Shown here in pieces: positions 30,264-58,250 of a stretch of 64,000 bases of DNA (the stretch's first letter is position 1; every line of letters starts with the position of its first letter). This DNA comes from Liquidambar formosana. Taxonomy: Eukaryota; Streptophyta; Magnoliopsida; Saxifragales; Altingiaceae. Below the pieces are notes generated by a model. That model made no database searches, was not told where the DNA came from, and was given only the letters and a program-made list of their open reading frames with translations. The stretch spans positions 19,324,717 to 19,388,716 of the forward strand of contig CM077828.1 in the NCBI GenBank assembly GCA_039720395.1, written 5' to 3'. The position numbers were made by a program, and so were the translations under genes.

Positions 30264-30264
30264 G

Positions 30265-38292: not shown

Positions 38293-38297
38293 GTGCA

Positions 38298-39463: not shown

Positions 39464-39774
39464 TTTTTTTTTTTTTTTTTTCTGATAATCAAATGAATTA
39501 TATTGAAGGGGGCAAAGTTACAGTTTCTTCCCCATCCTCATCATCCAACTCCGCAAGAAGAACTGACGAAGGGATGTAATAGGGATGGAGCCAAAACAAT
39601 TACAAAATGCAGTCCATTGGACTAGTTCATGGGCTGCTCTATTAACAAGCCTGGGGATAGCAAAAACATTCCAAACAGAAAAAGAATTTAACAAGGATCT
39701 AGCTACTTTGGTTAAAAGGAGTTTAACAAGGATCTATTAGCAAGTTGGTTTAAATGGAGTACCGCCTTATTAAT
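39464..39774 (-). mobile_element. 5'-truncated LINE tail
   Basis: On the minus strand it ends with 'caatataattcatttgatta', then 'tcagaaaaaaa' and a poly-A tail (T run 39464-39481), the common 3' end of plant L1-type LINEs. Upstream codons resemble the C-terminal RNase H-like part of LINE ORF2 (VNRAAHELVQWTAFCNCFGS, read in the copy at 58287-58456). Its 5' side is cut at 39774 by the Tat element. 39525-39774 is duplicated at 58287-58536. Confidence 0.65.
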
Positions 39775-40145
39775 TGTGAGCGCAAGCGGGAGTCGCCACC
39801 CAATTTAGCTTTGGGAACTGTGTTTTTTGGTCAAATTCGAGGTCCAGAGATTCAAGTCCGGAGCTAGGGTACATTATTGGGAAGGTATTAGGCACCCAAA
39901 AATGCCCGGTCGAAACCGGCCTCCGTGAATAATTGTTGGCTTTAATTAATCAAGGTATTTAATCGAATTTAACCCTAAGCATGTGAAAATGCAACAATAT
40001 GCCAAGCACGCGAATGATTATGCAAATAAGAAAATGATCAAGTGGAGAAATGGTTAGTAGCACATGGCATGACAGAATATACAGGAGATAATAACTCACG
40101 GAAAGCAAAAATAAATAAACAGATAAAAGAGTGCCTAAACTACAA

Positions 40146-40670
40146 TGCGTACGCACCATGTGTTGGTGCGTGCGCACCGTATGGTGGTGCGTGCGCACCA
40201 AGTGGATTCAAAATGGCCATTTGAAGCAGACGAATTTTTTCTGTCAGAGCACAGGGTGCGTACGCACCATGAAGTGGTGCGTACGCATCAGCAAGACAAT
40301 TTCCCTACATTTTCCACTAACATGCATTTTATAAATAAAATATTAACACTACTAACATTAATTTAATCTACAAAACTACCAATCAGCATACACTAATATT
40401 AAACAAAAGATACAACCATTAATATATACAAAAAATACTCACACTAACATTAAATATTCTAACCATACTTAATAAAATAACCTAACTAATATTATAATGA
40501 TATAATCTAATCTATTTTAATCAAAACCAGAATAAATTATGATAAACAATATAACCCACACGTACTCACATTAAACCCACGAATATAATATTAAAACTAA
40601 TTACTCTAACATTAACTAATTCTCTACCAGGAGAAGTGGTGCGTACGCATCACGCAGTGGTGCGTACGTA
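40146..40670. repeat. 21-bp-phased palindrome arrays in LTR, core TGCGTACGCA
   Basis: Decamers start at 40146, 40167 and 40188 (the last two are TGCGTGCGCA), 40257 and 40278, then 40640 and 40661 (last variant TGCGTACGTA). Steps within each group are exactly 21 bp. The same sites occur in the other LTR at 57068, 57089, 57110, 57179, 57200, 57562 and 57583. Confidence 0.95.
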
Positions 40671-41520
40671 CCAACTTAGCTTAAATGATGAACGGTCAAA
40701 GTTGGTCAAACTGTGGTCAAAATGACCAACCAAAGGTCCCACATGATAGGTCTCAACAAGACGAATTCGCCTGTCAAATTTGGAGTCAATCGGGCCAACC
40801 TAAGGTCTTCAAATGCTAGGGAACACGGTACCTGTGGGTGAGTACGCCCACACTGGATCACTGTCCACTTCACCTTCAACCTCAGAACGGGTTGAAGCTG
40901 AAAAATGCAGTATTGAGCTTTGTCCCGTGCTAACTTCTCCCTAACTTATCTTACTCATTTCTTAACCGAATTTAATGATTCAAAAACCAAATTGAAGCTC
41001 TTGCAGCGTACTACAAGCGCGCATAAATCGTTCATCCAAAAACTTGCAGAATCATGATTATTTTTTGGGTCAAAGTTTTGAGTTTATAACCCGAAAACCC
41101 GTCAATTCAAGAACTCATGTCACGGCTATTTTCCTTCAAATCTAACATTACCAATGATTTTCTTGACCTTAACAATGTAACATGGCATCATTATATTAAA
41201 CAATAACTCATAGAAACAAATATGCAGTATAAATTTACAGTGCATATATATATGTGTGTCTGTGATACGTACCCCTCAGGTTTGAATGCTTCCAATATCA
41301 ACGCAGCAATTCCCTTCTCGCAGCTTCAGATTACAACACTCAACCCTCCTTTCTCTCTTCTGGTTTTCTGGTGTTTTGGTGGGTATTTGGTTTCTCTCAC
41401 TCTCTCTTTCTGGCCGTTCTCCCTTAAGCCTCTATCAAAAAAGGAAATAGCTCTATCTCTAAAAAAAAAGGACCCCTCCCGACTGATTGATTGATCTCCT
41501 CTCCAGTCCCATCAGTAGAG

Positions 41521-41529
41521 TATAAATAG
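41521..41529 (+). promoter_or_regulatory. Plus-strand TATA box inside the LTR
   Basis: TATAAATAG in a GC-mixed context, antisense to the retrotransposon and oriented towards the antisense genes 1.8 kb downstream. It lies in the LTR part that the truncated 5' LTR has lost. Activity is inferred only. Confidence 0.4.
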
Positions 41530-41686
41530 GGCTCAATTAGGTTTTGAAAACATCCCCTGACTGGCCCATCCCCTACCCATGCGGGGAACACCCGTGGGAA
41601 TCTCCCCACTCCCCCCCCCATACTCTCCCCCATGCTCTCATGTTTAGTGGGAGACAGATCTGAAGGGGCCTGAAAAAGGCTTAAGG

Positions 41687-41738
41687 TGCGTACGCATGGA
41701 AACTTGGTGCGTACGCACCACCCATTGGTGCGTACGCA
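41687..41738. repeat. 21-bp-phased palindrome array near the LTR edge
   Basis: Three TGCGTACGCA decamers start at 41687, 41708 and 41729, exactly 21 bp apart, with unrelated spacers. Confidence 0.95.
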
Positions 41739-41893
41739 TGAAATGTAGGTGGACAGTATTTTCCTGTTGTAATCTTGGCTACTCGTCGGGAATTGCTTTG
41801 TCATTATCTCAAAACATACAATAAACCTCATCATTGGGTTTCCAAAATACGTGATTTCAAATTAATTAGGTGGTACAAAATGGGGTGTCTACA

Positions 41894-41908
41894 GTTGCCC
41901 CTCTTTCG
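41894..41908 (-). other. Polypurine tract of the Tat element
   Basis: On the minus strand CGAAAGAGGGGCAAC directly precedes the LTR start TGTAGACACC. This defines the inner end of the 3' LTR. Confidence 0.8.
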
Positions 41909-42212
41909 ATTTCACTCGCTCCTTCGAGTGGTGTCGAAAGATTCCATAGACCCAATCATTTTAACCGCCTAACAACTCAAAATCAAATGTAACCATGCAT
42001 GGGGTCGAATTAGGGATCACCTAACTACCTACGTACCCTTTTGTAAGGGATCAGACCCGCCGTAGTTCATGCATATGTGAGAATCCGACCTCGTTTGGGC
42101 TATAACGAGGATGGTAATAGGTATAAATCAATGGATGACAGTTACCATGAAGAATAAAGCAGACCCCAGAGCGGGTTAAAAGGATACATCGGGCCCCAGG
42201 GTGGGCGTAGAT

Positions 42213-42992
42213 TCAGTCATATCGGACCTCGGATTAGGTACGATTTCCTTCGCATCGGACCTCAGATTAGGTACGATTTCAGTCGTATCGGACCTCAGAT
42301 TAGGTGCGATTTCAGTCGTATCAAACCTCAGATTAGGTAACATTTCAGTCATATCGGACCTCAGATTAGGTACGATTTCCTTCGTATCGGACCTCAGATT
42401 AGGTACGATTTCCTTCGTATCGGACCTCAGATTAGGTACGATTTCCTTCGTATCGGACCTCAGATTAGGTACGATTTCCTCCATTTCGGACCTCAGATTA
42501 GGTTTTGGACCTCAGATTAGGTACGATTTCAGTCGCATCGGACCTCAGATTAGGTGCGATTTCAGTCGTATCGGACCTCAGATTAGATACGATTTCATTC
42601 ATATCGGACCTCAGATTAGGTTTCGGACCTCAGATTAGGTACGATTTCCTTCGTATCGGACCTCAGATTAGGTACGATTTCAGTCGTATCGGACCCCAGA
42701 TTAGGTACGATTTCATTCGTATCGGACCTCAGATTAGGTACGATTTCATTCCTATCGCACCTCAGATTAGGTACGATTTCATTCCTATCGGACCTCAGAT
42801 TAGGTACGATTTCATTCCTATCGGACCTCAGATTAGGTGCGATTTCAGTCGTATCGGACCTCAGATTAGGTACGATTTCAGTCGTATCGGACCCCAGATT
42901 AGGTACGATTTCATTCGTATCGGACCTCAGATTAGGTACGATTTCATTCCTATCGCACCTCAGATTAGGTACAATTTTATTCGTATCGGGTT
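42213..42992. repeat. 33-bp minisatellite in the 3' untranslated region
   Basis: About 23 head-to-tail units of a 33-bp monomer built on 'tcggacctcagattaggtac' plus 'gatttcattcgta'. Two units (near 42500 and 42620) are shortened to about 17 bp. The unit is 11 codons and lacks stops in several phases, so long repetitive reading frames appear on both strands (42201-42638, 42505-43053, 42616-43068). I treat them as by-products. Tandem repeats at this place are characteristic of Tat/Ogre elements. Confidence 0.9.
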
Positions 42993-43036
42993 TGTCACAC
43001 GGCGACGCGATTTGAGGAATACGTGGGAAGGTTTGA

Positions 43037-43088
43037 TGCGTACGCATGAATAACTGGTGCGTACGCACCCGTATCTAGTGCGTACGCA
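43037..43088. repeat. 21-bp-phased palindrome array upstream of antisense gene 1
   Basis: TGCGTACGCA at 43037, 43058 and 43079, exactly 21 bp apart, about 280 bp upstream of the gene 1 start codon. Confidence 0.95.
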
Positions 43089-43366
43089 TTAGATGCAATT
43101 CTGCCAAAATTTTTTCCCGAGACGGCACCGTTTCTTTTAAGGGGTGTTTCAAATTCTGAAACGACCTCTTCTTCTCCGGCGACGCTTCCCATTACCCCGA
43201 AAATCACTCCCCACTCCTCCATAACTCCCTCTCCCACTCACTCCTATTTCATAAAAAACTCATTCTCTTGCAAACCCATTCCCAACCCACTGTTCTCCTT
43301 CCTCTGTCTCTCATTCTTCCCATTCTTTTCTTCTTACTTTCTCTCTGCAACTTCCCGCCGGCAAAC

Positions 43367-45812
43367 ATGCCTCCCAAGAACAAACGGTTTCGCGGCGATG
43401 ATGAAGGGTTCACCATCAACCGTTGGGATCCACGGCTCAACCCGCAGCAAATCCCCGACATCACCTTCAGGCCACAGGAGCATCTCTCCCACATTGCACG
43501 GCAACAAAGAGTAAGTCTTGAAACCCATTCCTCCATTGTTGAATATGCATGCCTTCAAAGATCTGATTTTTATCTCTCACCGTCCATAAAAATGTGAACT
43601 TTATCCTCAAATGATCATAGTATGTCTGTATATATCATAAAAACTGGAGAAAACTTGTGAAATCTGAGTTTGGAGGTTGAGGGGGTTCACGGTCCCGAGG
43701 TTGAAGACGAACCAGGGTCCTGAGTGCGTACGCATAAGTCCCACATGCGTACGCACAAGCCCCGCATGCGTACGCATTGGGGTGTAGTGCGTACGCACCT
43801 CGAATTAATGTAACAAAATAAAAATAAAACAGAAATCTGATGGACTTAAGCATCGATGCGTACGCACTGCCTCGCCTATTCGTACGCAGTCTCCTCCTAT
43901 GCGTACGCACTGTGACCAATGCGTACGCACCATAGGTCATGCGTACGCACCGAACTTGTGTTTGATAGAATTGATCTGAACCTGTACTTACCTGTATCTG
44001 TACTTACCTGGGTTCTCCTTCTTTCCAGATTCCAAAGAAGAAAAGTGGACGTGGCAGTCTGGAGAGTTTGACTACTTGGTGGGACCGGTTGACCCCCGAT
44101 ACTCAGCAATTGGTGTCGGATGTCGGGTTTGGGACCGTGGCTGCAGTGACGATTCATCGGGCTACCAGCAACACCTTGGTTTTCTGCCTGGCAGAGAGAT
44201 GGTGGGACACCACCCATACCCTTCATTTAGCGGGTAGGGAGTGGACTCTCACCCCTTACGACTTCCACCGTCTGACAGGTCTACGGATGAGGGGGAGGCC
44301 CTTCACTTTTGAGCTGACTGAGGATCAGAGGAAGGCGTTGACCTAGCGTTTGTTGGGCATGCCTTGCCCCAATGCCACCATGAAGTATCCAGCTTTGTAC
44401 AATGAGTTTCTTGGGAGAGGGCAGGACTCTGTGGAGGAGCGTGTTATCATGGCTCGAGCTTTCATCCTCTACCTTATAGGGGCTTTCCTAGTCCCTAATG
44501 CTGCGCAGACTTTTGAGCCAGGTTGGCTCTTAGCATTGGAGGACCTTGAGGCTGCATATGAGTATGGATGGGGGTCGGCTGTCTTGGCACACCTTTATGC
44601 CACCACGGATGCCCTTAGTCGGGTAAAATCCGACTCTTTGATAGGCTGCTGGAGGCTTTGGGCGGTAAGTAACCGTATATGGGTTCCATTCTCTTCTATT
44701 TTCATGCTTTGCTCTCTCCTCAAGATGTTTATTGATTCTCTTTGTTTGTCTTGCAGCTATGGGCCCAGGAGTACATTGACTTGAGACCTCTGGGCGACCA
44801 GGAGGACTTGTCCCACATTGGAGTCCGAGAGTTCCTAGACAGGCTTGAGCGTGTATGGGTCCACTTTTGCTTTCTATTGTTCTCTTTCCCCTTTTTGTTT
44901 CCTTTTGGCTGATCATGTCCTGACAATAGGTGAATCCCCGCCCTTGGGTTGGTCGAGCCGAGGTTGGTCCCCCAGAGTGGGAGGAGGACGCGCACGCTAT
45001 GGCTGAGGTGTCCTGTTTGCTGTCCTATCCCCGTGCCCGGGCCTTTTACTTTGCCGAAAGGGTCGTGCCCCAGCTGACTACAGATCTTGAGTTGTGTGCC
45101 CGAGTCCCCTATGATCCTCCTGCCTTCTCCTTGGTGCCCTATCAGATGGGTGAGCTAGATTTGGATGAGTGGCGAGGTGGCATTCATTACATTTCTCGTC
45201 TGCTGAGCCTAGAGCATGACTATGCCACCTTTGCCAGGGAGCGCCTCATGCCCCGCTTCATTGGTCACCAGGTATCCATTCTGTTCCATTCTTGTCACTG
45301 TTTTGCTTTCCATAAGCTTGCCCCTGTCATTGCACTTTTTTCATACCCAGGTTCCTGATGCGGGCATTCCTCCCGAGGGACTTCCTCCTGCATTCCCCTC
45401 GTGGTCGGTTCCTCTTTATGATGAGAAGGGCGAGGCGTATGAGGAGTCCATTGTCCCCGACCCGCGAGCGCATCCACTCCCTTTCCCTCCTGGCACGCGT
45501 CAGGTAGCATTTCTTCTTTCTCTTGACAGGTCCTGCAAAATAGTTAGTTCGAAATATGCATGCCCTAATCGCACTTTGATTTTTCAGCTTACCCTTGCGG
45601 AGATGGAGCTTGTATACCAGATGTTTGGTGGGCTCAAGCGGATGTTGACTGCTCATTCCGCGACAATCTTGCGCATGCGGGGAGGGCCGGCACCCGGAGG
45701 TGCAGCAGATGCAGGGGGAGGTGGTGATGATGAGGGTGGTGATGATGGTGGGCATGGTGGTGGTGGGGCTGGTTCATCCAGCGGTCCATCTTATCGCCCT
45801 AGGGGCTTTTAG
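43367..45812 (+). CDS. Antisense gene 1: plant mobile domain (PMD)-like protein, six exons, one in-frame stop
   Basis: Six exons join without a frameshift, all in phase 0: 43367-43510, 44029-44664, 44757-44852, 44930-45271, 45351-45503 and 45588-45812. Introns have GT..AG ends (for example AGA|GTAAGT, CCAG|ATT, GCG|GTAAGT, GCAG|CTA, CAG|GTATCC). The product is about 531 residues. It starts MPPKNKRFRGDDEG, has the PMD (aminotransferase-like) core in exon 2 (LAERWWDTTHTLHLAGREWT, then HRLTGLRMRG), and ends in a Gly/Asp-rich tail. PMD proteins such as MAIN/MAIL act in plant nuclei in silencing and meristem maintenance, and PMDs are often found within transposons. A TAG at 44344-44346 (codon 154) interrupts it. 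It is antisense to the Tat element, between pol and the 3' LTR. The domain call is fairly sure; function is unknown. Confidence 0.7.
43725..43949. repeat. 21-bp-phased palindrome arrays in intron 1 of antisense gene 1
   Basis: TGCGTACGCA starts at 43725, 43746, 43767 and 43788 (steps of 21), then 43857, 43879 (variant TTCGTACGCA), 43900, 43920 and 43940 (steps 22, 21, 20, 20). The array lies wholly inside the 43511-44028 intron. Confidence 0.95.
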
Positions 45813-46039
45813 ACTCTATCTCTCTTTACTTTGAACAATTTGCAATTTCAATTTCGGGGTTATGTACTTAAACATTTGCACTTGGTTTTTATTTCAGTAT
45901 GTGCTTTTCTTGCTTTGAATTGCTGTGTGCTGCCTGAAATGATTTTGAAGTTGCATTGATCTGCTTAGTGTAAATATAGATGAAACCAGGTGGCTCGGTT
46001 ACTGAAACAGGGTGTTCTGACAGTGTAGGAAACACGTAA

Positions 46040-46112
46040 TGCGTACGCACCCACTATTAATGCGTACGCACTTGGAATTAATGCGTACGCATCTCCCACA
46101 GATGCGTACGCA
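46040..46112. repeat. 21-bp-phased palindrome array between antisense genes 1 and 2
   Basis: Four decamers at 46040, 46061, 46082 and 46103, each exactly 21 bp apart, 90 bp upstream of the gene 2 TATA box. Confidence 0.95.
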
Positions 46113-46200
46113 TCAAATGAAATTCTGTCCTTTTTTAGGGCCCACAGCAGTCTCTCTTGTTTGTCTCTTTCCCAAAAGGGCATTTGCTGTACTTTTTCTT

Positions 46201-46207
46201 TATAAAG
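46201..46207 (+). promoter_or_regulatory. TATA box of antisense gene 2
   Basis: TATAAAG in 'tttctttataaaggcttc', about 75 bp before the ATG at 46281. Good position for a plant core promoter. Confidence 0.5.
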
Positions 46208-46280
46208 GCTTCTTCTTCATTACCCTAGCCGCCACTTGAACTCTACCAGCATCATCCCTTCCACCTCCTATTTTTCACTA

Positions 46281-47589
46281 ATGGCGAACCTTTCTAACTG
46301 GCTCAAATCTTTGGATGGCCAATCTCGCAGGGAATTTAAATCCCAGTTTCAACTGTCTTCTTTGCTTGATTATTCCCAAGTGCGGGTTAACCAAGACTTT
46401 CTCAAACTGGCTACCGAGTTTTGGGATCCTTCTCGTCATGTGTTCCGCTTCAATAACACGGAAGTGTGTCCCACCATGGAGGAATTTGGGGCCATCCTTG
46501 GGCGTCCAGATTTCGACCATATATTACTACCACCCGTAGTACCGCTCAAAGTCGAGGGCCTAATTTCTTCTTTATTCGGCATTCCAACCAGGGTAGCTCG
46601 GGGATGGTTTTCAAATTCAAGGATAGACTTCCAACTTGTAGTTTCGCACTTCAGCCAACTTCCTCCTATAGTTACAGGTAATCAACTCCAACACCGTTTG
46701 AATGCCCTTTGCTTTTGTATCTTGGCATGTTACTTGTTTGTGGATGCCCCCGACTCCGCCGACGTGGCCCTATTGCAGATCCTTCCTTTATTGAGGGAAT
46801 CCAATCCAAGCATGATGGTCTTAGCCGGAACTCTCAATGCTCTAGATAGGTTTGTGAGGGGTGAGGTCCCCTTTGTTGGTGGCAGTCCCTTGCTGTTGCA
46901 GGTAAATTCCCCTTCATTCCCGTCCATCCTTTCTTTTTCATTCTGTATGGCTGCTTTTTTGTTCATCAGTGCGTACGCATGTGGATATGATGCGTACGCA
47001 TGAAATCTTGATGCGTACGCAAAAAGGGTTTGATCCACTTTTCCCAATTTTTCAGATTTGGTTATTCGAACGCTTGCAGCTTATAGTAGAACCCCACGTG
47101 AGTCCGTGGGCGTACCAACCACAACTTTACCGCCGTCGGGCCTTGATTAAACCTTTTCCTGGCATCGAGGAGCTTCGCGGCATGCTTTCTAACATTTCCT
47201 GTCATGGTATTCGGTGGAACTGTCCTTGGTGGAGAATATCCGACATGACTCTAGGTCTGATTTTTTCTCACAGCGTGATACTAGCTGGCCTTCGGGAAGT
47301 GTCCTACTGTCCCGTGCTTCGCATCCAACGGCAATTCGGCAGGCCTCAAAGATCGCTGCTTAAAGAGCACATGGGATATGTCTGTCCACTCGGGGCCCGC
47401 CTTGTTGAGCGCATTCAAGGGGCATGGCCCAACAGGATGCGGGTTTTATCCGTCGCCGCCCCTGAGCTGATTAGTCCCTCTGCTGCTTACTACGGCTGGC
47501 TCGCCTCCGACATTGGGGGATCGAAAGAGGATGAAGTTCATCGTAAAAGAAAAAGACTGAATCAAGACGGTCATGATGGTAGTGGATGA
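46281..47589 (+). CDS. Antisense gene 2: DUF7745/PMD-like protein, two exons
   Basis: Exon 1 (46281-46901) begins ATGGCGAACCTTTC and ends at donor GCAG|GTAAATT. Exon 2 (47056-47589) follows acceptor TTTTTCAG and ends TGA. Both are phase 0, giving about 384 residues without a stop. The N-terminal half has the pattern of plant DUF7745 proteins related to the plant mobile domain (FWDPSRHVFRF, then CPTMEEFGAILGRP). The C-terminal half (WWRISDMTLGLIFSHS, QRQFGRPQ) ends in a basic stretch (HRKRKRLNQD). The gene is antisense to the Tat element and convergent with gag-pol, whose stop codon lies 180 bp away. A palindrome array sits in its intron. The domain assignment is from memory of the family pattern; function is unknown. 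Confidence 0.7.
46970..47021. repeat. 21-bp-phased palindrome array in the intron of antisense gene 2
   Basis: Decamers at 46970, 46991 and 47012, exactly 21 bp apart, inside the 46902-47055 intron. Confidence 0.95.
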
Positions 47590-47768: not shown

Positions 47769-50700
47769 TCATATATAGTATTTGCGCAAACGATCCAGAT
47801 TGACAGGTTGCGTAAACTCATTTCCCTCTTCGTCCATTAGCCTGACTGCTCCTCCTGACAATATAGCCTTGATGATATACGGGCCTACCCAATTGGGCCT
47901 AAACTTGCCCCTAGGATCCGATACCCGAGTCAACATTTCCTTGAGCACTAGGTCTCCTTCCTTCAGATTTCTCGGCCTCACCTTTTTGTTAAAAGCCCTG
48001 GCAACCCTCCTTTGATACCCTTGTACATGGTACAGTGACTTAAGTCTTCTTTCGTCCAACAGTGCCAATTGTTCGTACCGGTCCCTTTTCCATTCAACTT
48101 CAGGGATTTGGCTTTCTACCATGACCCTTAATGATTGAACTTCTAATTCCACCGGTAAAACTGCTTCCATCCCGTATACCAACGCGTAAGGCGTTGCCCC
48201 AGTAGACGTCCTTACTGATGTTCGATATCCCCACAATGCTCCTGGCAACTTTTCTGCCCAATCCTTGTAAGTCTTTGCGGACTTTTCTAGGATGTGCTTT
48301 ATGTTCTTATTGGCTGCTTCTACAGCTCCGTTGGTCTGTGGCCGGTAAGGGGAGGATTTGTGGTGCTTAATACTGTACTTCTCGAAAATACTTTGGACTT
48401 CCCCCTGAAAATGTGATCCATTATCTGAAATGACCTCGTGTGGCACCCCATACCTGTAGATAATGTGAGTCTCGATGAACTTAGCCACGTGCTTGGCTTT
48501 CAACTCCGTGTAGGCTTTTGCTTCTACCCATTTTGTGAAGTAGTCGATGGCTACCAATATGTACTCGTGTCCACCCGTAGCCTTCGGGGTAATCTTACCT
48601 ATAACATCTATGCCCCAGACAGAGAAGGGCCACGACGATGTCAATTGGTGTAACTCGACCGGAGGTGTGTACTGCATGTTGGAATAGACCTGACATTGGT
48701 GACATTTTCTCACGTACTCCACGCAATCCATTTCCATGGTAGTCCAGTAATATCCCAACCGAATCAGCTTTTTAGCTAGCATCCTCCCGTTCATGTGGGG
48801 TCCACAATCCCCTCCGTGTACTTCACTAACCAGTGTTTGGGCTGCTTCTTTATCGACACACAACAGATGAATGCCATTGGCTGACCTTTTGAACAGGTTT
48901 CCACTGCATAAAACATACTGTGTTGCTAACAACCTCAGTGCCCGCCGGTCTTTCCTGGTAGCTTCCTCAGGGTACACTTCTCGCTCCAGGAAGTTCAAAA
49001 TATCAAAATACCAAGGTTTCCCATCGTCAAATTCTTCTTCTATGAACATAATGGTGGCTTCATGGGCAGGTCGAGAGCTCTGTTGTATGATCAAGGGTTG
49101 CAATTGGGCTTTTTCTGGGATGTGGATCAACGAGGCTAAAGTGGCTAGGGCATCGGCAAATTGATTTTGGGATCGAGGTAGAGGAGTGAAGGTTATTTTC
49201 TGGAACTTTAGAGCTAATTTCTCGAGGTAGCTTTGGTAGGGTTTCAGATGTTCTTCCTTGGTTTTCCAAATATTTTGAACTTGAGCGATCACTAATGCCG
49301 AATCTCCATAGACCTCGACTTCTTCCACATTAAGGGCTAGCAACGCCTCCAATCCCGCGATACAGGCCTCATACTCGGTAGTGTTGTTTGAATTGTGGAA
49401 GTTGAGTTTAATTGACAAGGGTACATGCAGGTTGTCTGGTGTGATCAAGATAACTCCAACTCCATTCCCGTATTGGTTCGATGCTCCATCAAAATACATC
49501 TTCCACGTTCGTACACATTCAATGTTCAAGAGGTTTTCGTCGGGGAAGTCGTCGTCGAGGGCCTGTCCTGGGACTGAATGTTCGGCACAAAAATCGGCTA
49601 CTGCTCCCCCTTTAATTGCCTTCTGGGTGACGTAAGTCAATTCAAATCCTGCGAGGAGGAATAACCAACGCGATAATCGCCCATTGAGTGTTTGTTTCTC
49701 GAACAGGTACTTGAGCGGATCCATGCGGCATATTATCCACACCTCATAATTTATCAGGATATGCTTCAACTTCTGAACAGCCCAGACTAGCGCGAAGCAT
49801 GATTTCTCCACTGCAGTATACCTCACTTCGTACTCGTGCAACTTTTTGCTCAGGTAATAGATAGCATGCTCACGTCCTTGGTCATCGTGCTGAGCTAACA
49901 TGCTCCCTAGAGCCTCCTCAAATACTGATAGATACAACAACAGCGGCTTTCCAGGGCGTGGTGGGACTAGTATCGGTGGTTTCAACAAGTATTCCTTTAT
50001 TACTTCGAAGGCTCGTTGACATTGATCGTTCCATTCCTTGGGTTCCCCTTTCTTTAACAGTTTGAAAATAGGCTCGCAGGTCGAAGTGAGTCCTGCTATA
50101 AATCTGCTGATGTATTGCAATCTCCCCAGGAAACCCCGAACCTCTTTCTCTGTCTTGGGCGGCGGCATCTCCATAATTGCCTTGATCTTAACAGGGTCAA
50201 CCTCTATGCCTCTGTTTGTCACCATATACCCTAATAGTTTCCCTGATGTTACTCCAAAGGTGCACTTCTGCGGGTTCAACCTCAGTTTATACTCCCTGAT
50301 TCGCTCGAAGAACTTTTGAAGGTTGTCTAGATGACTCTCCCTGGTTTCTGACTTTACAATCATGTCATCGACGTACACTTCCACTTCTCGGTGCATCATA
50401 TCATGTAACAAAGTAGTAGCCATTCTCTGGTAAGTGGCCCCGGCATTCTTTAACCCAAATGGCATAACCGTATAACAGTAAGTCCCCCATCCCGTGGTGA
50501 AGGTTGTCTTGGTCATATCTTCAGGTGCCATCTGAATCTGGTTGTATCCCGAGAATCCATCCATAAATGACATTAGCGCACTTCCCGCAGTGTTATCCAC
50601 TAGGACATCAATATGTGGGAGGGGGAAGTCATCCTTTGGGCAAGCTTTGTTGAGGTCACGAAAATCCACACATACTCGGACTCGCCCATCTTTCTTCGGT

Positions 50701-53700
50701 ACTGGCACTATGTTGGCGACCCAATCTGCTTGATCAACTGCCCGTATGAATCCCACCTCTAATAACTTCGAGACTTCTTCCTTTACTTTGATTGACCATT
50801 CAGGTTGCATTCTTCTCAACCGCTGCTTGACAGGCTTAGATCCTTCTTTGACGATGATGCGATGTTGCACTATCTCCGGATCTATGCCAGGCATGTCTGC
50901 GTATGACCAAGCAAATACATCTTGGAATTCCTGCAATAAGGTGCTAAGACTAGACCGTTCTTGCGTGGATAGTGTAGACCCAACTTGTATTTCCTTAGGA
51001 TTTTCATTAGTGCCTAAGTTAATTAAAATAGTTTCGCTTTTAATGGGTTCAAAATTTCTTTCTTGGTTGTCATTGATTATTTTGTTTAAATCAGGATCCT
51101 CAGACATTTGTGCAATATATTCCTCAAGAGACACGTCAACATAAGCAAAATCAGAATCCATTTCATTGGCAATAGGGGTGGTTACAGCAGTAGTGTTCTC
51201 GAGAAACTTAGGAACAGAGCTAGTGGTGAGTTTGTCCTTGGCTGGAGGGGATTTGTCACCCGCGTTGGAGTACGCGCGGATCTCAGCTCCTTTCTTCCAA
51301 ACCCACAGGCTTGTGCCCCCATTTGCTTCAGTGATCAGCTTAGTCAAGTTTGTGACGGCCTCTTCTTCAGTCAGGACTAGTATATCTAAACCCTGCTCAG
51401 ACAGCAGTAGACTCAGATTCCCCAGATTTTCAGCCCAGTCTACTTCTAGCACCTCTTTCCCTAGAGGTTTTCCTTTGGTGATGCCCAACCTCAGTTCTGC
51501 GGCGAAGAAAACTTCCAGCCCCGGCACCCTTCTCTTGCTATATTTGTCAAACCATGGCTCGGGGAATCCGCAATAGGGGAAGTCTTCCCCTTCCTTGACG
51601 AAATTCCCGTTAAGGGTATTCTTGTTTTTTGGCAGTTCTTCCTCCTCGGCATAACCTATTCCCTTACGGTTTGTCTGCATGCGGAAATCCGGGAGTTCAG
51701 TGACTCCTTGACCTCTTTTTCCCATCCCCATACCTGGCATGTACCCCATCTTTTTCATGATGTGAGCTACCGTGTGTCTGATCCCCTCCCCGAAATCAGG
51801 GTGAACCTCTTCCATCCCTTCATCTTTTCTTTCCAGCATTTGGACCAGTTCGAAACCTCTCCACCCTGGATTTTCCTCTCCTGCTTTTATTCCCGATACT
51901 TGGCCCGTGATTTCTCCGTCGCCATGAATTATCAAGACACCTCCTTCCCATGGCAGCTTAATCTTTTGATGTACAGTGGACGGGACGGCTTCTAGTGGGT
52001 GCAGCCACGTTCTCCCCAAGAGCAAATTGTAATTGGCGGGTATGTCCATGACACAAAATTCAACAACGGATATAACAGGTCCCACCTTACAGCATGCTTG
52101 GAAGGTCCCTAATACTGGTCTGGAGCTATTGTCATACCCCCTTACTGTTATTGCAGATGGCGCCAAATCTTCATTGCCAAACCCTAACCTGGTTGCTGTG
52201 CGCATGGGGCATACATTCAAGGCTGATCCGTTGTCCACCAATACCACTGGGATTTTCAAGTCTTTGCATTCAACAGTAATATACAAAGGTTTTGCATGCT
52301 CCGATCCTTCAGCGGGGAGATCTCCCTTCGAAAAAGTTAAGATAACCTCGTCTGGAGACTCCCCCACCCTCATTAGGGAGAGGATCTGCTGAGGTGTAGT
52401 TTCAATTGGAACCTCTTGTTTCGCCAATGCGTCTAACACTGCCTGTCTGTGTTTTCTTGAAGCCACTAGTAGCCCCCATAGACTGATGTTTGCTTGTGTT
52501 TTCTTGAGTTGCTTCAGAACCCTATCCTCTTCCTCTTCTTGCTCCAAGATCCGCATTCGCTGCCTTAGTTCTTCCCCATCCCCTTCTTGATTTACCTCTC
52601 TCCCAGGATGGTCGCCTTCTAGGTGAGAAGGTTTGAAATGTCTCCCTGCGCGGGTGAGGTGCATGGAGTCTTCGGTGTCATCTGCCTTGATCTCAGCCCA
52701 AATATTTTTTGTCGTCCCATCTCTTTCTTCGTCGCTGTCTTCCCATGGTGCACATACAGCTACTATCAAAGCCAACGGGTCGTAACCTTCCGCACCTTCC
52801 GCAAGCATGTTCACATATGGCGGTGTGGCACCTTTGTAGTTGGGGAGAGGATTCTGATGTACGTTGGGCTTTTTCTCTTCCCCGGGTGGTGGTAGCTTGC
52901 CTGTGTCAATAAGATCTTGGATCTCGTGCCTCAGTCGGACACAGTTGTCAGTCCGATGCCCGATGCGCTGGTGGAAATCACAGAACTCGTTTTGTTTCCA
53001 GAATGATGGAATAGGATTAGGCAATGACCTTACTTCTAATGCTTGCAGATGTCCTCTTTTCATTAGGTTAACAAAGGCTTTGGAGAGAGGGACCCCCAAA
53101 TCATGAAAAAACCTTGGTTTCCTTTCAGCTTGTTGCACGGCACTGACCGTAGCTTGCGTGGGCCCATTAGCCCGATTTGCCCCACTTGGAGCGCTGTTAC
53201 TTGCCCCAAATACTCTTCTGGGCTTGCCCTCTATCTGCCCCTTGTGAATTGCATCTTCTATCCTTGTTCCACACTGGTACAACTGTTGAAAATCCATAAC
53301 TGATGAAGTCAACATTTTATCGAAGTAGACCGGCGTCAAGTTCCTCAGTATCATGTTGACCTGGTCTATTTCAGCAGGACGGCTCACCATTTTTACTGCC
53401 TTTGTCCTCCAACGGCTTAGGAAGTCTGAAAAAGTCTCGTCTGGCTTCTGCCTTGTCATTTCCAAATCTCTCAATGTCACGTCTAACATGGTGTTGTAGT
53501 TGTATTTGTCCGTGAATTCTTGAGTCAATGCCTCCCAAGAATCAGTGATCTTCTTGTCCACTGCGTAATACCATTTGGAAGCGTCTCCTGATAGTGAGAG
53601 GGGGAAGGCGCACAAGACTTGATCCGAATTTAGCCCCCTCATTTTAGTTATGCTCAAGTATTGACGCAAGTGTTGCTTGGGGTCCCCGGTTCCATCAAAT

Positions 53701-54230
53701 TTCTCATAATTTGCGATCTTGAATTTTTCCGGAAGCTGAGTCTTTGATTCAGAAGTGATCCCATCCATGGAGAACATGAAGCTGTCTAAGCCTTGTGACT
53801 TCCGCCAGGCGGTTTTCATTTGGTTCATCTGTTCTTTCATTTCTTGGTTTTCTGTTTCCAGTTTGTCCATCCTTGGATCTTTTCCCTTTGCCCTCACATC
53901 CCTCTTGGCTTGGTATTCTTCATAGTCTCCGTCATCCCATATGCCATCAGTGCCTCCGGTTCTTTGGATAACTATTCCTTCTCCTTCCTCCCTACTGGGT
54001 GCTTCTGGGCTTTTAGGCTTGTCTTTCCCTGTTTCCAAGACGCTCAGCCTCTCACTCATCTTGGTAACCATTTCTTTCATTTCAGCTCTGTCACGCACCA
54101 TCATGGCCATGAGTTCTGCCAAGGTTGGTTCTGTCGTCTGTCCGCGTTCCATCACTACTAGCTCGGTTTCTGCTTTTCTTAAACGGTTCGATGTAGGGGA
54201 ACGGACCCAAGCCCAGCCTGGTGTACGCAA
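47769..54230 (-). CDS. Ty3/gypsy Tat-lineage gag-pol polyprotein, uninterrupted
   Basis: The frame is 2153 residues; the likely start is Met27 (54152). Domains in order: coiled-coil and Retrotrans_gag (about 30-340); a zinc-knuckle-like CX2HX4HX4C (417-430); aspartic protease with active site VDNGSALN (Asp666); a G-patch-like segment (about 816-860, GMGMGKRGQG); reverse transcriptase with Asp1224 and YVDD (1286-1289). A first RNase H (about 1430-1550) has LYLSVFEEALG where the catalytic Asp is expected. A second, archaeal-type RNase H (about 1576-1700) keeps D1581, E1619, D1643 and D1693. Integrase has the HHCC finger (H1805, H1812, C1843, C1846) and a D1875, D1936, E1971 triad with the canonical 35-residue spacing, then a GPY motif near 2116. 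No chromodomain is present. All these motifs are intact, so the protein may be active. It makes element particles and new DNA copies. Confidence 0.95.
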   Translation of the reverse strand: MRTPGWAWVRSPTSNRLRKAETELVVMERGQTTEPTLAELMAMMVRDRAEMKEMVTKMSERLSVLETGKDKPKSPEAPSREEGEGIVIQRTGGTDGIWDDGDYEEYQAKRDVRAKGKDPRMDKLETENQEMKEQMNQMKTAWRKSQGLDSFMFSMDGITSESKTQLPEKFKIANYEKFDGTGDPKQHLRQYLSITKMRGLNSDQVLCAFPLSLSGDASKWYYAVDKKITDSWEALTQEFTDKYNYNTMLDVTLRDLEMTRQKPDETFSDFLSRWRTKAVKMVSRPAEIDQVNMILRNLTPVYFDKMLTSSVMDFQQLYQCGTRIEDAIHKGQIEGKPRRVFGASNSAPSGANRANGPTQATVSAVQQAERKPRFFHDLGVPLSKAFVNLMKRGHLQALEVRSLPNPIPSFWKQNEFCDFHQRIGHRTDNCVRLRHEIQDLIDTGKLPPPGEEKKPNVHQNPLPNYKGATPPYVNMLAEGAEGYDPLALIVAVCAPWEDSDEERDGTTKNIWAEIKADDTEDSMHLTRAGRHFKPSHLEGDHPGREVNQEGDGEELRQRMRILEQEEEEDRVLKQLKKTQANISLWGLLVASRKHRQAVLDALAKQEVPIETTPQQILSLMRVGESPDEVILTFSKGDLPAEGSEHAKPLYITVECKDLKIPVVLVDNGSALNVCPMRTATRLGFGNEDLAPSAITVRGYDNSSRPVLGTFQACCKVGPVISVVEFCVMDIPANYNLLLGRTWLHPLEAVPSTVHQKIKLPWEGGVLIIHGDGEITGQVSGIKAGEENPGWRGFELVQMLERKDEGMEEVHPDFGEGIRHTVAHIMKKMGYMPGMGMGKRGQGVTELPDFRMQTNRKGIGYAEEEELPKNKNTLNGNFVKEGEDFPYCGFPEPWFDKYSKRRVPGLEVFFAAELRLGITKGKPLGKEVLEVDWAENLGNLSLLLSEQGLDILVLTEEEAVTNLTKLITEANGGTSLWVWKKGAEIRAYSNAGDKSPPAKDKLTTSSVPKFLENTTAVTTPIANEMDSDFAYVDVSLEEYIAQMSEDPDLNKIINDNQERNFEPIKSETILINLGTNENPKEIQVGSTLSTQERSSLSTLLQEFQDVFAWSYADMPGIDPEIVQHRIIVKEGSKPVKQRLRRMQPEWSIKVKEEVSKLLEVGFIRAVDQADWVANIVPVPKKDGRVRVCVDFRDLNKACPKDDFPLPHIDVLVDNTAGSALMSFMDGFSGYNQIQMAPEDMTKTTFTTGWGTYCYTVMPFGLKNAGATYQRMATTLLHDMMHREVEVYVDDMIVKSETRESHLDNLQKFFERIREYKLRLNPQKCTFGVTSGKLLGYMVTNRGIEVDPVKIKAIMEMPPPKTEKEVRGFLGRLQYISRFIAGLTSTCEPIFKLLKKGEPKEWNDQCQRAFEVIKEYLLKPPILVPPRPGKPLLLYLSVFEEALGSMLAQHDDQGREHAIYYLSKKLHEYEVRYTAVEKSCFALVWAVQKLKHILINYEVWIICRMDPLKYLFEKQTLNGRLSRWLFLLAGFELTYVTQKAIKGGAVADFCAEHSVPGQALDDDFPDENLLNIECVRTWKMYFDGASNQYGNGVGVILITPDNLHVPLSIKLNFHNSNNTTEYEACIAGLEALLALNVEEVEVYGDSALVIAQVQNIWKTKEEHLKPYQSYLEKLALKFQKITFTPLPRSQNQFADALATLASLIHIPEKAQLQPLIIQQSSRPAHEATIMFIEEEFDDGKPWYFDILNFLEREVYPEEATRKDRRALRLLATQYVLCSGNLFKRSANGIHLLCVDKEAAQTLVSEVHGGDCGPHMNGRMLAKKLIRLGYYWTTMEMDCVEYVRKCHQCQVYSNMQYTPPVELHQLTSSWPFSVWGIDVIGKITPKATGGHEYILVAIDYFTKWVEAKAYTELKAKHVAKFIETHIIYRYGVPHEVISDNGSHFQGEVQSIFEKYSIKHHKSSPYRPQTNGAVEAANKNIKHILEKSAKTYKDWAEKLPGALWGYRTSVRTSTGATPYALVYGMEAVLPVELEVQSLRVMVESQIPEVEWKRDRYEQLALLDERRLKSLYHVQGYQRRVARAFNKKVRPRNLKEGDLVLKEMLTRVSDPRGKFRPNWVGPYIIKAILSGGAVRLMDEEGNEFTQPVNLDRLRKYYI

Positions 54231-54480
54231 ATCTGACCGTGAGTGCTCAATTCTTTACTGAAATTTTGACCAAGGCAAGTGATTAAGTTCATGCCCCTTT
54301 TATTGAATGAGAGCTTTATTAGGCTTTACCCAATTCTGTCCTATCATACCTTGGGCCTCGTCATGTTTACTAAATCTTTCAAGTGCCCAAGGTTTGACAG
54401 GTACACAAAGTAGATCATTTTCCAAGCTTAGGCCCATTACAAATGCTCTCATCTCACAAACTCTTTTGGATCCAAGCCCA

Positions 54481-55193: not shown

Positions 55194-55742
55194 ATGGCCT
55201 CTTCCTCCGCTTCCCGAAATCGTCCTGACCTGAACGCTGTGCCAGAGGCACAACCAGACATATGGCGACCAATGTTCCCAACCCAAAATCAACTTATCAC
55301 GGTCAATGATACCGTGGTACACAACCCTACAAACGCGACGGCGGTAGCCGCGGGACTCATCACTCCTCGTGATGAAAGGATTTTAAACGCTAGGTCCGAC
55401 ATGGACCTTATGGGGGACGCCATGGCCTTGAGTGTTCGGGCCACCATAGTCACCTCTAGCATGGCTCGGCGTCTCCACACTAAGGGTGTGGAAGTCGGGA
55501 GGTTAAACCACCATATTCTCAGCCTTCAACGAACCATCCGTCAATCCGGTCGGACGATAAGGACTTTGAGAGAGGAGAACAGAGTACTGAAAGACATGGT
55601 GGACGCTTATGCCAGGGGCGTCACACCTAGGGTTGTGGCTCTAGAAGGGCTCGAGGATCAGATTCGGGACCAACTTGAGAGTCTCCGGAAACGGCCCGAA
55701 GCTGGTCCCTCCAATCCTACTCAAAATACTACTAACGAGTAG
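55194..55742 (+). CDS. Antisense ORF 3: coiled-coil protein in the 5' leader
   Basis: An uninterrupted plus-strand frame gives 182 residues from the ATG at 55194 (MASSSASRNRPDLNAVPEAQ). A longer version starts at 55095; I prefer 55194 because the sequence before it is low-complexity and pyrimidine-rich like a 5' leader. The C-terminal half has heptad-like character (LHTKGVEVGRLNHHILSLQR, then ENRVLKDMVDAY) and a second helix (LEGLEDQIRDQLESLRKR), suggesting a coiled coil and self-association. I recognise no family. It is antisense to the retrotransposon, like genes 1 and 2, but on the other side of gag-pol. It may be a real third passenger gene or an accidental frame. Confidence 0.5.
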   Translation: MASSSASRNRPDLNAVPEAQPDIWRPMFPTQNQLITVNDTVVHNPTNATAVAAGLITPRDERILNARSDMDLMGDAMALSVRATIVTSSMARRLHTKGVEVGRLNHHILSLQRTIRQSGRTIRTLREENRVLKDMVDAYARGVTPRVVALEGLEDQIRDQLESLRKRPEAGPSNPTQNTTNE

Positions 55743-56696: not shown

Positions 56697-58250
56697 TGTG
56701 AGCGCAAGCGGGAGTCGCCACCCAATTTAGCTTTGGGAACTGTGTTTTTTGGTCAAATTCGAGGTCCAGAGATTCAAGTCCGGAGCTAGGGTACATTATT
56801 GGGAAGGTATTAGGCACCCAAAAATGCCCGGTCGAAACCGGCCTCCGTGAATAATTGTTGGCTTTAATTAATCAAGGTATTTAATCGAATTTAACCCTAA
56901 GCATGCGAAAATGCAACAATATGCCAAGCACGCGAATGATTATGCAAATAAGAAAATGATCAAGTGGAGAAATGGTTAGTAGCACATGGCATGACAGAAT
57001 ATACAGGAGATAATAACTCACGGAAAGCAAAAATAAATAAACAGATAAAAGAGTGCCTAAACTACAATGCGTACGCACCATGTGTTGGTGCGTGCGCACC
57101 GTATGGTGGTGCGTGCGCACCAAGTGGATTCAAAATGGCCATTTGAAGCAGACGAATTTTTTCTGTCAGAGCACAGGGTGCGTACGCACCATGAAGTGGT
57201 GCGTACGCATCAGCAAGACAATTTCCCTACATTTTCCACTAACATGCATTTTATAAATAAAATATTAACACTACTAACATTAATTTAATCTACAAAACTA
57301 CCAATCAGCATACACTAATATTAAACAAAAGATACAACCATTAATATATACAAAAAATACTCACACTAACATTAAATATTCTAACCATACTTAATAAAAT
57401 AACCTAACTAATATTATAATGATATAATCTAATCTATTTTAATCAAAACCAGAATAAATTATGATAAACAATATAACCCACACGTACTCACATTAAACCC
57501 ACGAATATAATATTAAAACTAATTACTCTAACATTAACTAATTCTCTACCAGGAGAAGTGGTGCGTACGCATCACGCAGTGGTGCGTACGTACCAACTTA
57601 GCTTAAATGATGAACGGTCAAAGTTGGTCAAACTGTGGTCAAAATGACCAACCAAAGGTCCCACATGATAGGTCTCAACAAGACGAATTCGCCTGTCAAA
57701 TTTGGAGTCAATCGGGCCAACCTAAGGTCTTCAAATGCTAGGGAACACGGTACCTGTGGGTGAGTACGCCCACACTGGATCACTGTCCACTTCACCTTCA
57801 ACCTCAGAACGGGTTGAAGCTGAAAAATGCAGTATTGAGCTTTGTCCCGTGCTAACTTCTCCCTAACTTATCTTACTCATTTCTTAACCGAATTTAATGA
57901 TTCAAAAACCAAATTGAAGCTCTTGCAGTGTACTACAAGCGCGCATAAATCGTTCATCCAAAAACTTGCAGAATCATGATTATTTTTTGGGTCAAAGTTT
58001 TGAGTTTATAACCCGAAAACCCGTCAATTCAAGAACTCATGTCACGGCTATTTTCCTTCAAATCTAACATTACCAATGATTTTCTTGACCTTAACAATGT
58101 AACATGGCATCATTATATTAAACAATAACTCATAGAAACAAATATGCAGTATAAATTTACAGTGCATATATATATGTGTGTCTGTGATACGTACCCCTCA
58201 GGTTTGAATGCTTCCAATATCAACGGGCAAAATTCCCTTCTCGCAGCTTC
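56697..58250 (-). repeat. Partial 5' LTR of the Tat element
   Basis: Matches 39775-41327 with very few differences (for example near 56906 and 57930). It stops at 58250, so about 566 bp of the outer (U3) part is missing. Seven palindrome decamers are kept. A short rearranged stretch lies near 58225-58232. Confidence 0.9.
57068..57592. repeat. 21-bp-phased palindrome arrays in the 5' LTR
   Basis: Same sites as 40146-40670, at 57068, 57089, 57110, 57179, 57200, 57562 and 57583. Confidence 0.95.

Follow-up and report, generated by a model that had tools for sequence, protein, structure and literature searches.

VANDALs are Mutator-type DNA transposons. VANC21, one of their proteins, binds arrays of family-specific motifs that lie in the noncoding DNA of its own transposon (introns, intergenic and terminal regions), the same kind of binding was inferred for VANC6 and the motif arrays of its own transposon, and DUF1985 is present in VANC (Hosaka 2017, PMC5735166). 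In Sireviruses, which are Ty1/copia elements, high-copy family-specific palindromes, the repeated motifs (RM), occupy the LTR and the region preceding an extra gene, and most of them bear CpG (Bousios 2010, PMC2829016). The long elements of the Ogre lineage carry an additional RNase H domain, situated between RH and INT (Neumann 2019, PMC6317226; Ikeda 2017, PMC5418596), and 57% of Ogre elements have an extra ORF coding for a plant mobile domain (PMD; PMC6317226). Between their pol and their 3' LTR, Retand elements carry antisense genes whose products were proposed to act as DNA-binding regulators, and tandem repeats lie near these genes (Vicient 2025, PMC11963269).

The element described here, found in a window of Liquidambar formosana DNA (the whole stretch that was analysed, 64,000 nucleotides), resembles each of these in part. 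Like the VANC/VANDAL system (PMC5735166; Sasaki 2023, PMC10398659), it has dense, repeated, family-specific short motifs placed in noncoding DNA, both internal (introns, spacers) and terminal, and motif sets that differ between related families, as they do in the Arabidopsis system; the PMD encoded by its gene g1 may be a distant relative of VANC's DUF1985, the match lying under the curated cut-off. It is, however, an LTR retrotransposon (gag-pol and LTRs) and no VANDAL element. VANC motifs are directional 8-9-mers, whereas the present ones are palindromes in a 21-bp phase; DUF287, the other VANC domain, finds no match in g1, g2 or g3 even at E values as high as 1; and binding and hypomethylation, demonstrated for VANC, would be predictions for the present system.

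The RM of Sireviruses are the closest relatives in cis, sharing high copy number, family specificity, location and, for most RM, the presence of CpG. The present element differs in its Ty3/gypsy order RT-RH-INT, and its palindrome TGCGTACGCA is without the CGG...CCG signature of the RM, like Tnd-1 among the 13 listed; the consulted parts of the Sirevirus account give no spacing rule and no antisense-gene introns (PMC2829016). The second RNase H, the length and the PMD-coding extra ORF (here g1) are shared with the Ogre lineage, for which the consulted parts of the published accounts describe no phased palindromes (the main text of PMC6317226 contains no instance of the string 'palindrom'). Antisense genes with tandem repeats nearby are shared with Retand, which has TRP28 rather than PMD; 'palindrom' stands twice in the consulted text, both times in one cited title (PMC11963269).

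The element and its genes

The element is classified as an Ogre-type (Tat) Ty3/gypsy retrotransposon on the minus strand, with genes g1 and g2 on the plus strand (Table 1). The pol half contains RT_RNaseH (350-453), RVT_3 (505-622), Integrase_H2C2 (716-773) and rve (792-888) domains; RVT_3 probably represents the aRH between RH and INT. The model of g1 exon 2 has one in-frame stop, and the DUF1985 match of this gene (E 1.8e-4, 22 bits) is under the curated cut-off of 35.1. Residues ~72-120 of g2 (46494-46640) show a weak homeodomain-like helix-turn-helix (best E 0.034). The chains listed for this place were homeodomains in 17 of 17 cases in one search and 12 of 13 in another, which count as one piece of evidence because the chains are redundant; in Pfam, the helix-turn-helix was matched by one of seven g2 sequences. 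Structure models of P0007, a PMD relative belonging to the family of the window, and of g2 exon 1 were of unusably low quality (mean pLDDT 44 and 46), and PMD relatives used as profile queries against the PDB returned one chain, at E 0.65.

Table 1. Features of the window (steps are start-to-start distances in bp)
Feature	Position	Strand	Details
CAGTCGACTG array (up to one mismatch)	11463..11605		in solo LTR 9707-12192; steps 21, 21, 21, 49, 21
Same CAGTCGACTG array	16818..16960		in sister solo LTR 15101-17544
3' LTR	39776..41893	-	TG...CA ends; polypurine tract immediately inside, from 41894
LTR array 1	40146..40197		3 sites, one exact and two TGCGTGCGCA; steps 21, 21; copy at 57068-57119
LTR array 2	40257..40287		2 sites; step 21; copy at 57179-57209
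LTR array 3	40640..40670		2 sites; step 21; copy at 57562-57592
LTR array 4	41687..41738		3 sites; steps 21, 21; counterpart missing owing to 5' LTR truncation
33-bp tandem repeat	42212..42989		~23 copies, between 3' LTR and g1
Array in leader 5' of g1	43037..43088		3 sites; steps 21, 21
g1	43367..45812	+	PMD (PF10536, E 6.8e-24); six modelled exons
g1 intron 1 array	43725..43797		4 sites; steps 21, 21, 21
g1 intron 1 array	43857..43949		5 sites; steps 22, 21, 20, 20
g1-g2 intergenic array, upstream of g2	46040..46112		4 sites; steps 21, 21, 21
g2	46281..47589	+	DUF7745 (PF24924, E 4e-10); two exons, open frame; PMD match below cut-off
g2 intron array	46970..47021		3 sites; steps 21, 21
gag-pol frame	47769..54254	-	gag, G-patch, RT, RNase H, second RNase H between RH and INT, integrase
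g3, small ORF on strand opposite gag-pol	55194..55742	+	only sub-cut-off match: FUSC, E 0.0013
5' LTR	56697..58250	-	outer end truncated; 99.6% identity with 39775-41327
Site set in 5' LTR copy	57068..57592		seven sites

Phased palindromes in noncoding regions

Allowing up to one mismatch to TGCGTACGCA, we recovered all 29 sites, in nine groups, that an earlier, sequence-only reading of this DNA had listed. Our recount of the 20 within-group steps gave the same figures, with 17 steps of 21 bp, two of 20 bp and one of 22 bp. That reading had missed the seven sites of the second LTR copy, which are not independent because this LTR duplicates the left one. With up to two mismatches, the whole window holds 44 sites versus 7.6 expected and a maximum of 13 in 100 shuffles. 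A blind scan of the window for any 10-bp palindrome repeated within 60 bp yielded 42 pairs, of which 24 had a spacing of 21 bp and 11 a spacing of 42 bp, and the same scan found 0 or 1 pair in total in each of ten Markov simulations. A chance origin of the arrays was rejected on the basis of the shuffles, these simulations and the 10-mer control given below.

Confinement of the sites to noncoding parts was likewise borne out: none of 36 (the 29 and the seven in the second LTR) falls in a predicted exon, with exon models built from splice signals and homology. When 12 blocks were randomly placed in the element, such placement had P = 5e-5 (one in 20,000 placements), and for the five internal blocks only, P = 0.0024.

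Site shape and conservation between copies

The two-fold symmetry of the sites reaches past 10 bp. In the window, the core is preceded by R at -1 in 29 of 29 sites and followed by Y at +10 in 27 of 29, and among 142 distinct contexts the same bases were found in 134 and 137, respectively. The spacers had been described as unrelated, which needs correction: the bases flanking the core are constrained, and the central 5 bp are slightly alike within arrays (0.36 over 10 pairs versus 0.24 expected; shuffle P 0.03), although between arrays their likeness is at chance level (0.24 over 126 pairs). Local duplication therefore probably contributed somewhat.

Pairwise alignments of copies gave 51 differences in 3,151 core positions (1.6%), 209 in 2,806 spacer positions (7.4%) and 11,260 in 205,427 positions elsewhere. 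The CpG-rich core is indeed preserved: its CpG cytosines differ at 17 of 629 aligned positions, as compared with 477 of 5,580 for CpG outside arrays and five of 14 for spacer CpG. The number of units in an array varies between copies, and odd numbers are common.

Spacing across the genome

In the 718 Mb host genome, 4,376 exact TGCGTACGCA pairs are 21 bp apart, whereas the ten distances of 10-19 bp together hold 278 pairs and the seventeen distances of 22-38 bp hold 786. The histogram of spacings (10-19 and 21-42 bp) thus has the peak at 21 bp that the sequence-only reading expected of a genuine system, and the outcome which that reading had named as refuting, a histogram lacking this peak, did not arise. 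A second palindrome, CACGTACGTG, forms 1,025 pairs at 21 bp genome-wide. These pair counts overstate the number of independent events, because copies of one family are not independent.

We further studied 200 kb in stretches (L020-L039) picked for carrying a 21-bp TGCGTACGCA pair, several of which are copies of one family. Here 35 of the 134 steps of up to 70 bp are of 20 bp, and steps of 22 and 31 bp were also seen; owing to the way the stretches were picked, these step counts are biased toward 21, a selection of which the counts for other palindromes in the same stretches and the genome-wide counts are free. Non-palindromic identical 10-mers in the same 200 kb, excluding windows near CGTACG, TCGA or ACGT, have no 21-bp peak (2, 10 and 8 pairs at 20, 21 and 22 bp, and 287 at 52 bp). 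A search of viral contigs for the motif pair found 0 stretches and one for P0007 found 24 pattern stretches, none related; genome contigs searched for the motif pair gave four bacterial stretches of a chance-like kind.

Relatives and change of motif

A PMD protein search using residues 55-420 identified seven relatives. Among five of the seven that were scanned, four have a DUF1985 match (E 3e-5 to 2.7e-3) and the fifth has none; the scores, 18-25 bits (24.5 for P0007), are all under the curated cut-off of 35.1. Distant relatives with a PMD 41-48% identical carry arrays at corresponding places, and in four of five such elements (L020, L027, L038, L031 and L034) the PMD pieces are 47-49% identical to P0007. 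In L020, L027, L038 and L031, arrays or single sites lie before g1 exon 1, between exon 1 and the PMD exon and before g2, and in L031 also between both g2 exons. In L034, which yielded no g1 exon 1, arrays precede the PMD exon and g2.

L034, the one CACGTACGTG element studied in detail, carries CACGTACGTG in place of TGCGTACGCA, in eight groups of two to three at 21 bp, not all independent since the group at 9203 sits in a stretch 85% like the LTR part of L034. The TGCGTACGCA groups in the same stretch belong to a nested solo LTR of another element (3527-5102, with a 5-bp duplication), and one mixed group consists of CACGTACGTA, CGCGTACGTG and, 17 bp further, TGCGTGCGCA. The PMD tree places L034 beside L031, a TGCGTACGCA element, and within the TGCGTACGCA elements with support 93/93, slightly below the usual mark in a tree of few rows and long branches. 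The putative reading helix of g2 differs among three families with a common motif, so g2 is not favoured as the motif reader.

Other LTR families have palindromes of their own. One in the window, absent from the sequence-only reading, has CAGTCGACTG, also at 21-bp spacing (Table 1). A different family, the second LTR family, known here from its LTRs alone, shows a switch between TTCAGTCGACTGAA and TTCAGACGTCTGAA; identity between two of these LTRs is 44-50% in the pair of 250-column windows around the array, as against 75-94% in the nine remaining windows.

Alternative explanations

The main rival to an element-encoded reader is a host transcription factor, adopted by the elements, that reads the arrays as enhancers; we hold this host account to be rather unlikely. 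The CGTACG centre of both Ogre motifs resembles the GTAC core recognised by plant SBP-box (SPL) factors. A host factor would suit the recurrence of one 10-bp motif across elements with PMD pieces of 41-49% identity, and the position of one LTR array ~165 bp downstream of a TATA-like box and of further arrays upstream of g1 and g2; Sirevirus palindromes have themselves been compared to stress-factor sites (PMC2829016). Other arrayed palindromes, however, have TCGA or ACGT centres, and the arrays extend beyond promoters into introns and spacers. The change of motif in nearly all groups of one element together would also be easier if the reader changed too, which argues against a host factor. That the arrays are ordinary minisatellites, a 21-bp unit duplicated in tandem whose palindrome persists through chance, gene conversion or recent origin, is very improbable. 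The weak likeness of spacer centres within arrays, the varying unit number and the 33-bp tandem repeat of the same element agree with it, but the core is 4.6 times less divergent than the spacers between copies, the window has four substitutions in 290 core bases although spacers of different arrays are at chance likeness, non-palindromic 10-mers lack the 21-bp peak, and one word stands at many separate places of a single element. Core and spacer divergence, chance-level spacers and the 10-mer control counter plain tandem duplication as a full account; the sequence-only reading was right to this extent, but duplication may still be how units multiply.

Two further readings were set aside by argument. 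RNA hairpins (10-bp stem, 11-nt loop), or Z-DNA or cruciforms formed by the alternating core, have a very remote chance of being the cause: neighbouring palindromes can pair and TGCGTACGCA and CACGTACGTG are strict pyrimidine-purine alternations, but CAGTCGACTG is not, arrays with odd unit numbers occur commonly, and hairpins require neither a common word across arrays nor single palindromes nor exact spacing. The least credible account is that the arrays assist or evade phased siRNAs of 21 nt, a link which the sequence-only reading had raised. It draws on the number 21 itself and on a Camellia phased-siRNA paper that names the plant mobile domain 16 times (PMC10673657), yet about 10-12 of the 21 bases are fixed and palindromic, which a 21-nt model does not need, and steps of 20, 22 and 31 bp occur.

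Proposed mechanism

We regard as about evenly balanced the proposal that the arrays are phased candidate sites for a dimeric sequence-specific DNA-binding protein, most likely element-encoded and anti-silencing or activating. On the best reading, an element regulator would act in the manner of VANC, which counters silencing in VANDALs. We infer protein binding, the origin of the protein in the element and the effect of binding. Each site forms a dyad 12 to 16 bp long, made of RTGCGTACGCAY with weaker positions on its outer sides. The sites lie about two helical turns apart, and therefore two to six dimers could sit on one face of the DNA and might bind cooperatively; in this respect the spacing fits the dimeric protein that had been suggested from the first. 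The reader would most likely be made by the element from the strand opposite gag-pol, by g1, g2 or both: g1 is a candidate through its PMD, distantly like the DUF1985 of VANC proteins, and g2 through its DUF7745 with the weak helix-turn-helix. This distant likeness to a known anti-silencing family was not part of the sequence-only reading. The protein would occupy the LTRs as well as leader and intron sequences of its own genes, where it may protect these regulatory parts from silencing by holding them open, or activate them, with a specificity that differs by family.

Implications

Palindromes in LTRs and family-specific target arrays were already known separately. In our searches of open-access literature, we found no report of a 21-bp phase common to LTR families with different palindromes, nor any linking such arrays to the PMD genes of Ogre elements. 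More tentatively, LTR retrotransposons of this genome may run a private control, consisting of a family palindromic address at two helical turns and their own dimeric reader, a PMD/DUF1985-like or DUF7745 protein of a VANDAL/VANC-like kind, with address and reader changed together. If so, families would escape each other and the host by joint change of the two, the plant mobile domain in transposable elements would read DNA addresses or partner a protein that does so, and the host silencing proteins MAIN/MAIL would be related to a selfish factor that counteracts silencing. With the proposed mechanism, the additional genes of Ogre elements gain a testable function, and the coexistence of fast-changing introns and spacers with fixed short words in these elements may find an explanation. 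Any palindrome repeated at 20-21 bp would offer a simple genome-wide signature for such systems in other plants.

Palindrome arrays and the element that carries them

All 29 sites of the self-complementary word TGCGTACGCA counted in the sequence-only reading were recovered at the same positions in nine groups (40146..47021), with 17 of 20 within-group steps at exactly 21 bp and the remaining three at 22, 20 and 20 bp. Allowing up to two mismatches, the window holds 44 sites, against a mean of 7.6 and a maximum of 13 in shuffles. A blind scan for any 10-bp palindrome recurring within 60 bp with at most one mismatch returned 42 pairs, of which 24 were spaced 21 bp and 11 were spaced 42 bp; pairs in the two LTRs are non-independent, the LTRs being copies of each other, and so are those in the two sister solo LTRs. 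Only two words, TGCGTACGCA and CAGTCGACTG, formed arrays; two others gave single pairs, at 26 and 16 bp, and ten simulated sequences yielded 0 or 1 recurring pair each.

The dyad exceeds 10 bp, with R at −1 in 29/29 and Y at +10 in 27/29 window sites and a weaker G/C and T/A preference farther out. Among 142 distinct contexts taken from 20 further stretches of the host genome (200 kb, each chosen for a 21-bp TGCGTACGCA pair), R was present in 134 and Y in 137; the outer G/C and T/A preference of the window did not hold there.

The arrays lie in a minus-strand Ty3/gypsy element of Ogre (Tat) type. Its left LTR is the 3' LTR, because a minus-strand polypurine tract precedes it and because of the direction of gag-pol. 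A second RNase H domain (RVT_3) lies between RNase H and integrase, and this domain order, together with an extra ORF predicted to code for a plant mobile domain (PMD), fits the description of Ogre elements given in Neumann 2019 (PMC6317226). Of the nine groups of sites, four are in the LTR and two in intron 1 of g1; the regions upstream of g1 and of g2 and the g2 intron hold one each. None of 36 sites, counting seven in the second LTR copy, falls in coding sequence predicted by our exon models, which bears out the proposed restriction to noncoding DNA. Within the LTR, a plus-strand TATA-like box (41521) points toward g1 and g2 and hints at an antisense LTR promoter.

Features of the window and of related stretches
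Feature	Coordinates	Strand	Remarks
Left LTR	39776-41893		3' LTR of minus-strand element
Right LTR copy	56697-58250		99.6% identical to left LTR over 1,555 aligned columns
gag-pol	54254 to 47769	minus	
G-patch domain	51003-54254	minus	between gag and RT in polyprotein; E 2.4e-7
33-bp repeat	42212-42989		~23 copies, between 3' LTR and g1
g1		plus	six predicted exons, one in-frame stop; PMD E 6.8e-24
g2		plus	two predicted exons; DUF7745 E 4e-10; PMD match below cut-off
g3		plus	small ORF
Direct target duplication	39525-39774 and 58251-58536		250 bp, flanks element
Direct repeat	28606-30266 and 36635-38295		1,661 bp, 99.8% identical, 8 kb apart
Solo LTR	9707-12192		5-bp duplication ATTTT; TTCAGTCGACTGAA-like array
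Sister solo LTR	15101-17544		5-bp duplication CGAAT; TTCAGTCGACTGAA-like array
CACGTACGTG groups	L034		three before PMD exon, three from there to g2, two in likely LTR
Nested solo LTR	L034:3527-5102		5-bp duplication CACGT
Relative of solo LTRs	L039:1669-4165		inserted in L039, opposite orientation
Two adjoining palindrome repeats	L022:1977-2147		unclassified DNA

The target duplication is 250 bp, not 5 bp. The 5' LTR is truncated and separated from it by a 36-bp filler, about 27 bp of which match inverted DNA at 59324-59353; the arrangement resembles what insertion or repair at a broken end would leave if the filler were copied from a template. The 1,661-bp direct repeat possibly represents the LTRs of another young element.

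Genome-wide spacing

The sequence-only reading had proposed a genome-wide distance histogram. In the single host assembly (718 Mb, 370 contigs), exact TGCGTACGCA pairs occurred at 4,376 places at 21 bp, against 278 summed over the ten distances 10-19 and 786 over the seventeen distances 22-38, all counts including copies of the same families; among spacings of 10-19 and 21-42 bp a peak at 21 was found, and reversed-pattern control pairs at 21 bp numbered 0 in this assembly. The total over 22-42 was 4,175, therefore most of these pairs lie at 39-42, that is, two steps, if one match was counted per start. At off-peak distances a few spacer sequences recur among the matches listed, so recurrent families account for part of these pairs. 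The fetched 200 kb, selected for holding a 21-bp pair, contained 191 sites giving 134 steps of ≤70 bp: 81 of 21, 35 of 20 and at most four of any further length.

Palindromes other than TGCGTACGCA formed 25 pairs in these stretches, 14 at 21 bp and mostly of CACGTACGTG and CAGACGTCTG, against at most two in simulations of the same 200 kb; non-palindromic identical 10-mers there showed no peak at 21. Genome-wide, CACGTACGTG and CAGTCGACTG gave 1,025 and 292 pairs at 21 bp. In L022, CAATCGATTG and GGATCGATCC are each repeated at 21-22 bp, and one of them resembles the Tnd-1 Sirevirus palindrome as given in PMC2829016.

Relatives of the element and a different motif

Five placed elements among the 20 stretches (L020, L027, L038, L031 and L034) have recognisable g1 and g2 pieces; L036 has a g2 piece only, with sites in LTR-like DNA. 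L020, L027 and L038 were counted as one family because their DNA is 92-95% identical, and carry arrays ahead of g1 exon 1, between that exon and the PMD exon, and ahead of g2. In L031 a lone site precedes g1 exon 1; arrays occupy the latter two places, and one more array lies between its two g2 exons. Between families, PMD pieces share 41-49% identity, and those of L031 and L034 share 56%. Protein relatives in other assemblies, read by eye from translated introns as protein letters only, gave array steps of 22, 20 and 20 (P0007, g1 98-99% identical) and 21 (P0001, g2 99%); P0004, whose g2 aligns over 53% of the query at only 41% identity, has three motif-like stretches seven codons apart.

In L034 the arrayed word is CACGTACGTG, present as eight groups, each with two or three sites 21 bp apart. 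The last group ahead of g2 lies 124 bp before the g2 start, and one mixed group ends in TGCGTGCGCA. Recurrence of the same spacers 18 kb apart suggests that two groups are in its LTR; the stretch around the group at 9203 is 85% like L034's LTR part. The three TGCGTACGCA groups of L034 are foreign to it, because they lie inside a nested solo LTR whose ends, TGTGAGCGC...GGTGTCTACA, are like those of the window's element. A PMD tree of eight rows joins L034 to L031, a TGCGTACGCA element, with support of 93/93, just under the usual mark, and a long-branch warning. An element-wide switch of motif would be the simplest reading. The nested LTR was inserted at a CACGTACGTG site, a whole site following its duplication at 5103; an array of one palindrome may draw in a different element, or the position is due to chance.

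The two window solo LTRs are 98.8% identical, each with TTCAGTCGACTGAA-like sites at steps of 21, 21, 21, 49 and 21. Their relative in L039 has identical LTR ends and carries TTCAGACGTCTGAA at steps of 20, 22, 21, 47 and 21 (in L039 coordinates). Aligned to the window LTR it is 80% identical overall, at 75-94% in nine 250-column windows but only 44-50% in the two that surround the array, where the units stand in a different order.

Conservation of core and spacers

Pairwise alignments of ≥400 bp among the fetched stretches, taking as core the positions of exact sites in the query, gave differences at 51/3,151 core, 209/2,806 spacer and 11,260/205,427 remaining positions, the pairs being non-independent. 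CpG cytosines differed in 17/629 (core), 5/14 (spacers) and 477/5,580 (elsewhere). When up to one mismatch was tolerated and the site could be in either copy (88 alignments), the counts were 58/2,294, 106/1,414 and 5,596/101,984, with 0/5 spacer CpG differing; pairs below 90% identity gave 11/420, 44/239 and 1,951/17,236.

Possible function of the arrays

Cooperative binding of a dimeric protein is the best explanation for dyads that are clustered, stand at two-turn steps and are kept as their spacers change, and we consider it highly probable that the arrays serve as such sites. Whether the element itself would make this reader protein is evenly balanced. In favour, arrays stand on either side of the extra genes that the element carries and also within them; where the motif differs, it does so throughout an element; and PMD is distantly similar to a domain (DUF1985) found in VANC, the anti-silencing proteins of Arabidopsis VANDAL transposons. 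Against it, DUF287 was not found in the element proteins, the DUF1985 match of g1 (E 1.8e-4) is below the cut-off, structure models are of poor quality, and the putative reading helix of g2 varies among families with the same motif. The g2 homeodomain-like signal is weak: all 17 PDB chains among the matches listed are homeodomains (best E 0.034), as are 12/13 of those listed with another alignment (best E 0.23).

The nearest cis feature is the set of palindromic repeated motifs (RM) of Sireviruses, family-specific in 13 elements, located in LTRs and before ENV, and with a CGG-CCG signature in 12 (PMC2829016). Compared with the RM as that source presents them, our arrays belong to another lineage, use another word, keep a strict phase and also occur in antisense-gene introns; lineage and signature rule out identity. 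A VANC/VANDAL system by definition is likewise ruled out, there being no VANDAL and no DUF287 in the element.

The targets of VANC proteins, which lift silencing, are family-specific arrays in the introns, spacers and termini of VANDALs (PMC5735166). An anti-silencing role for MULE-captured PMDs was raised as speculation by Ikeda 2017 (PMC5418596), and a Kakutani lecture, according to a meeting report (PMC12859917), described unpublished findings on the structure of VANC and on target DNA that point to co-evolution. The arrays of the Liquidambar element likely work like a VANC target array.
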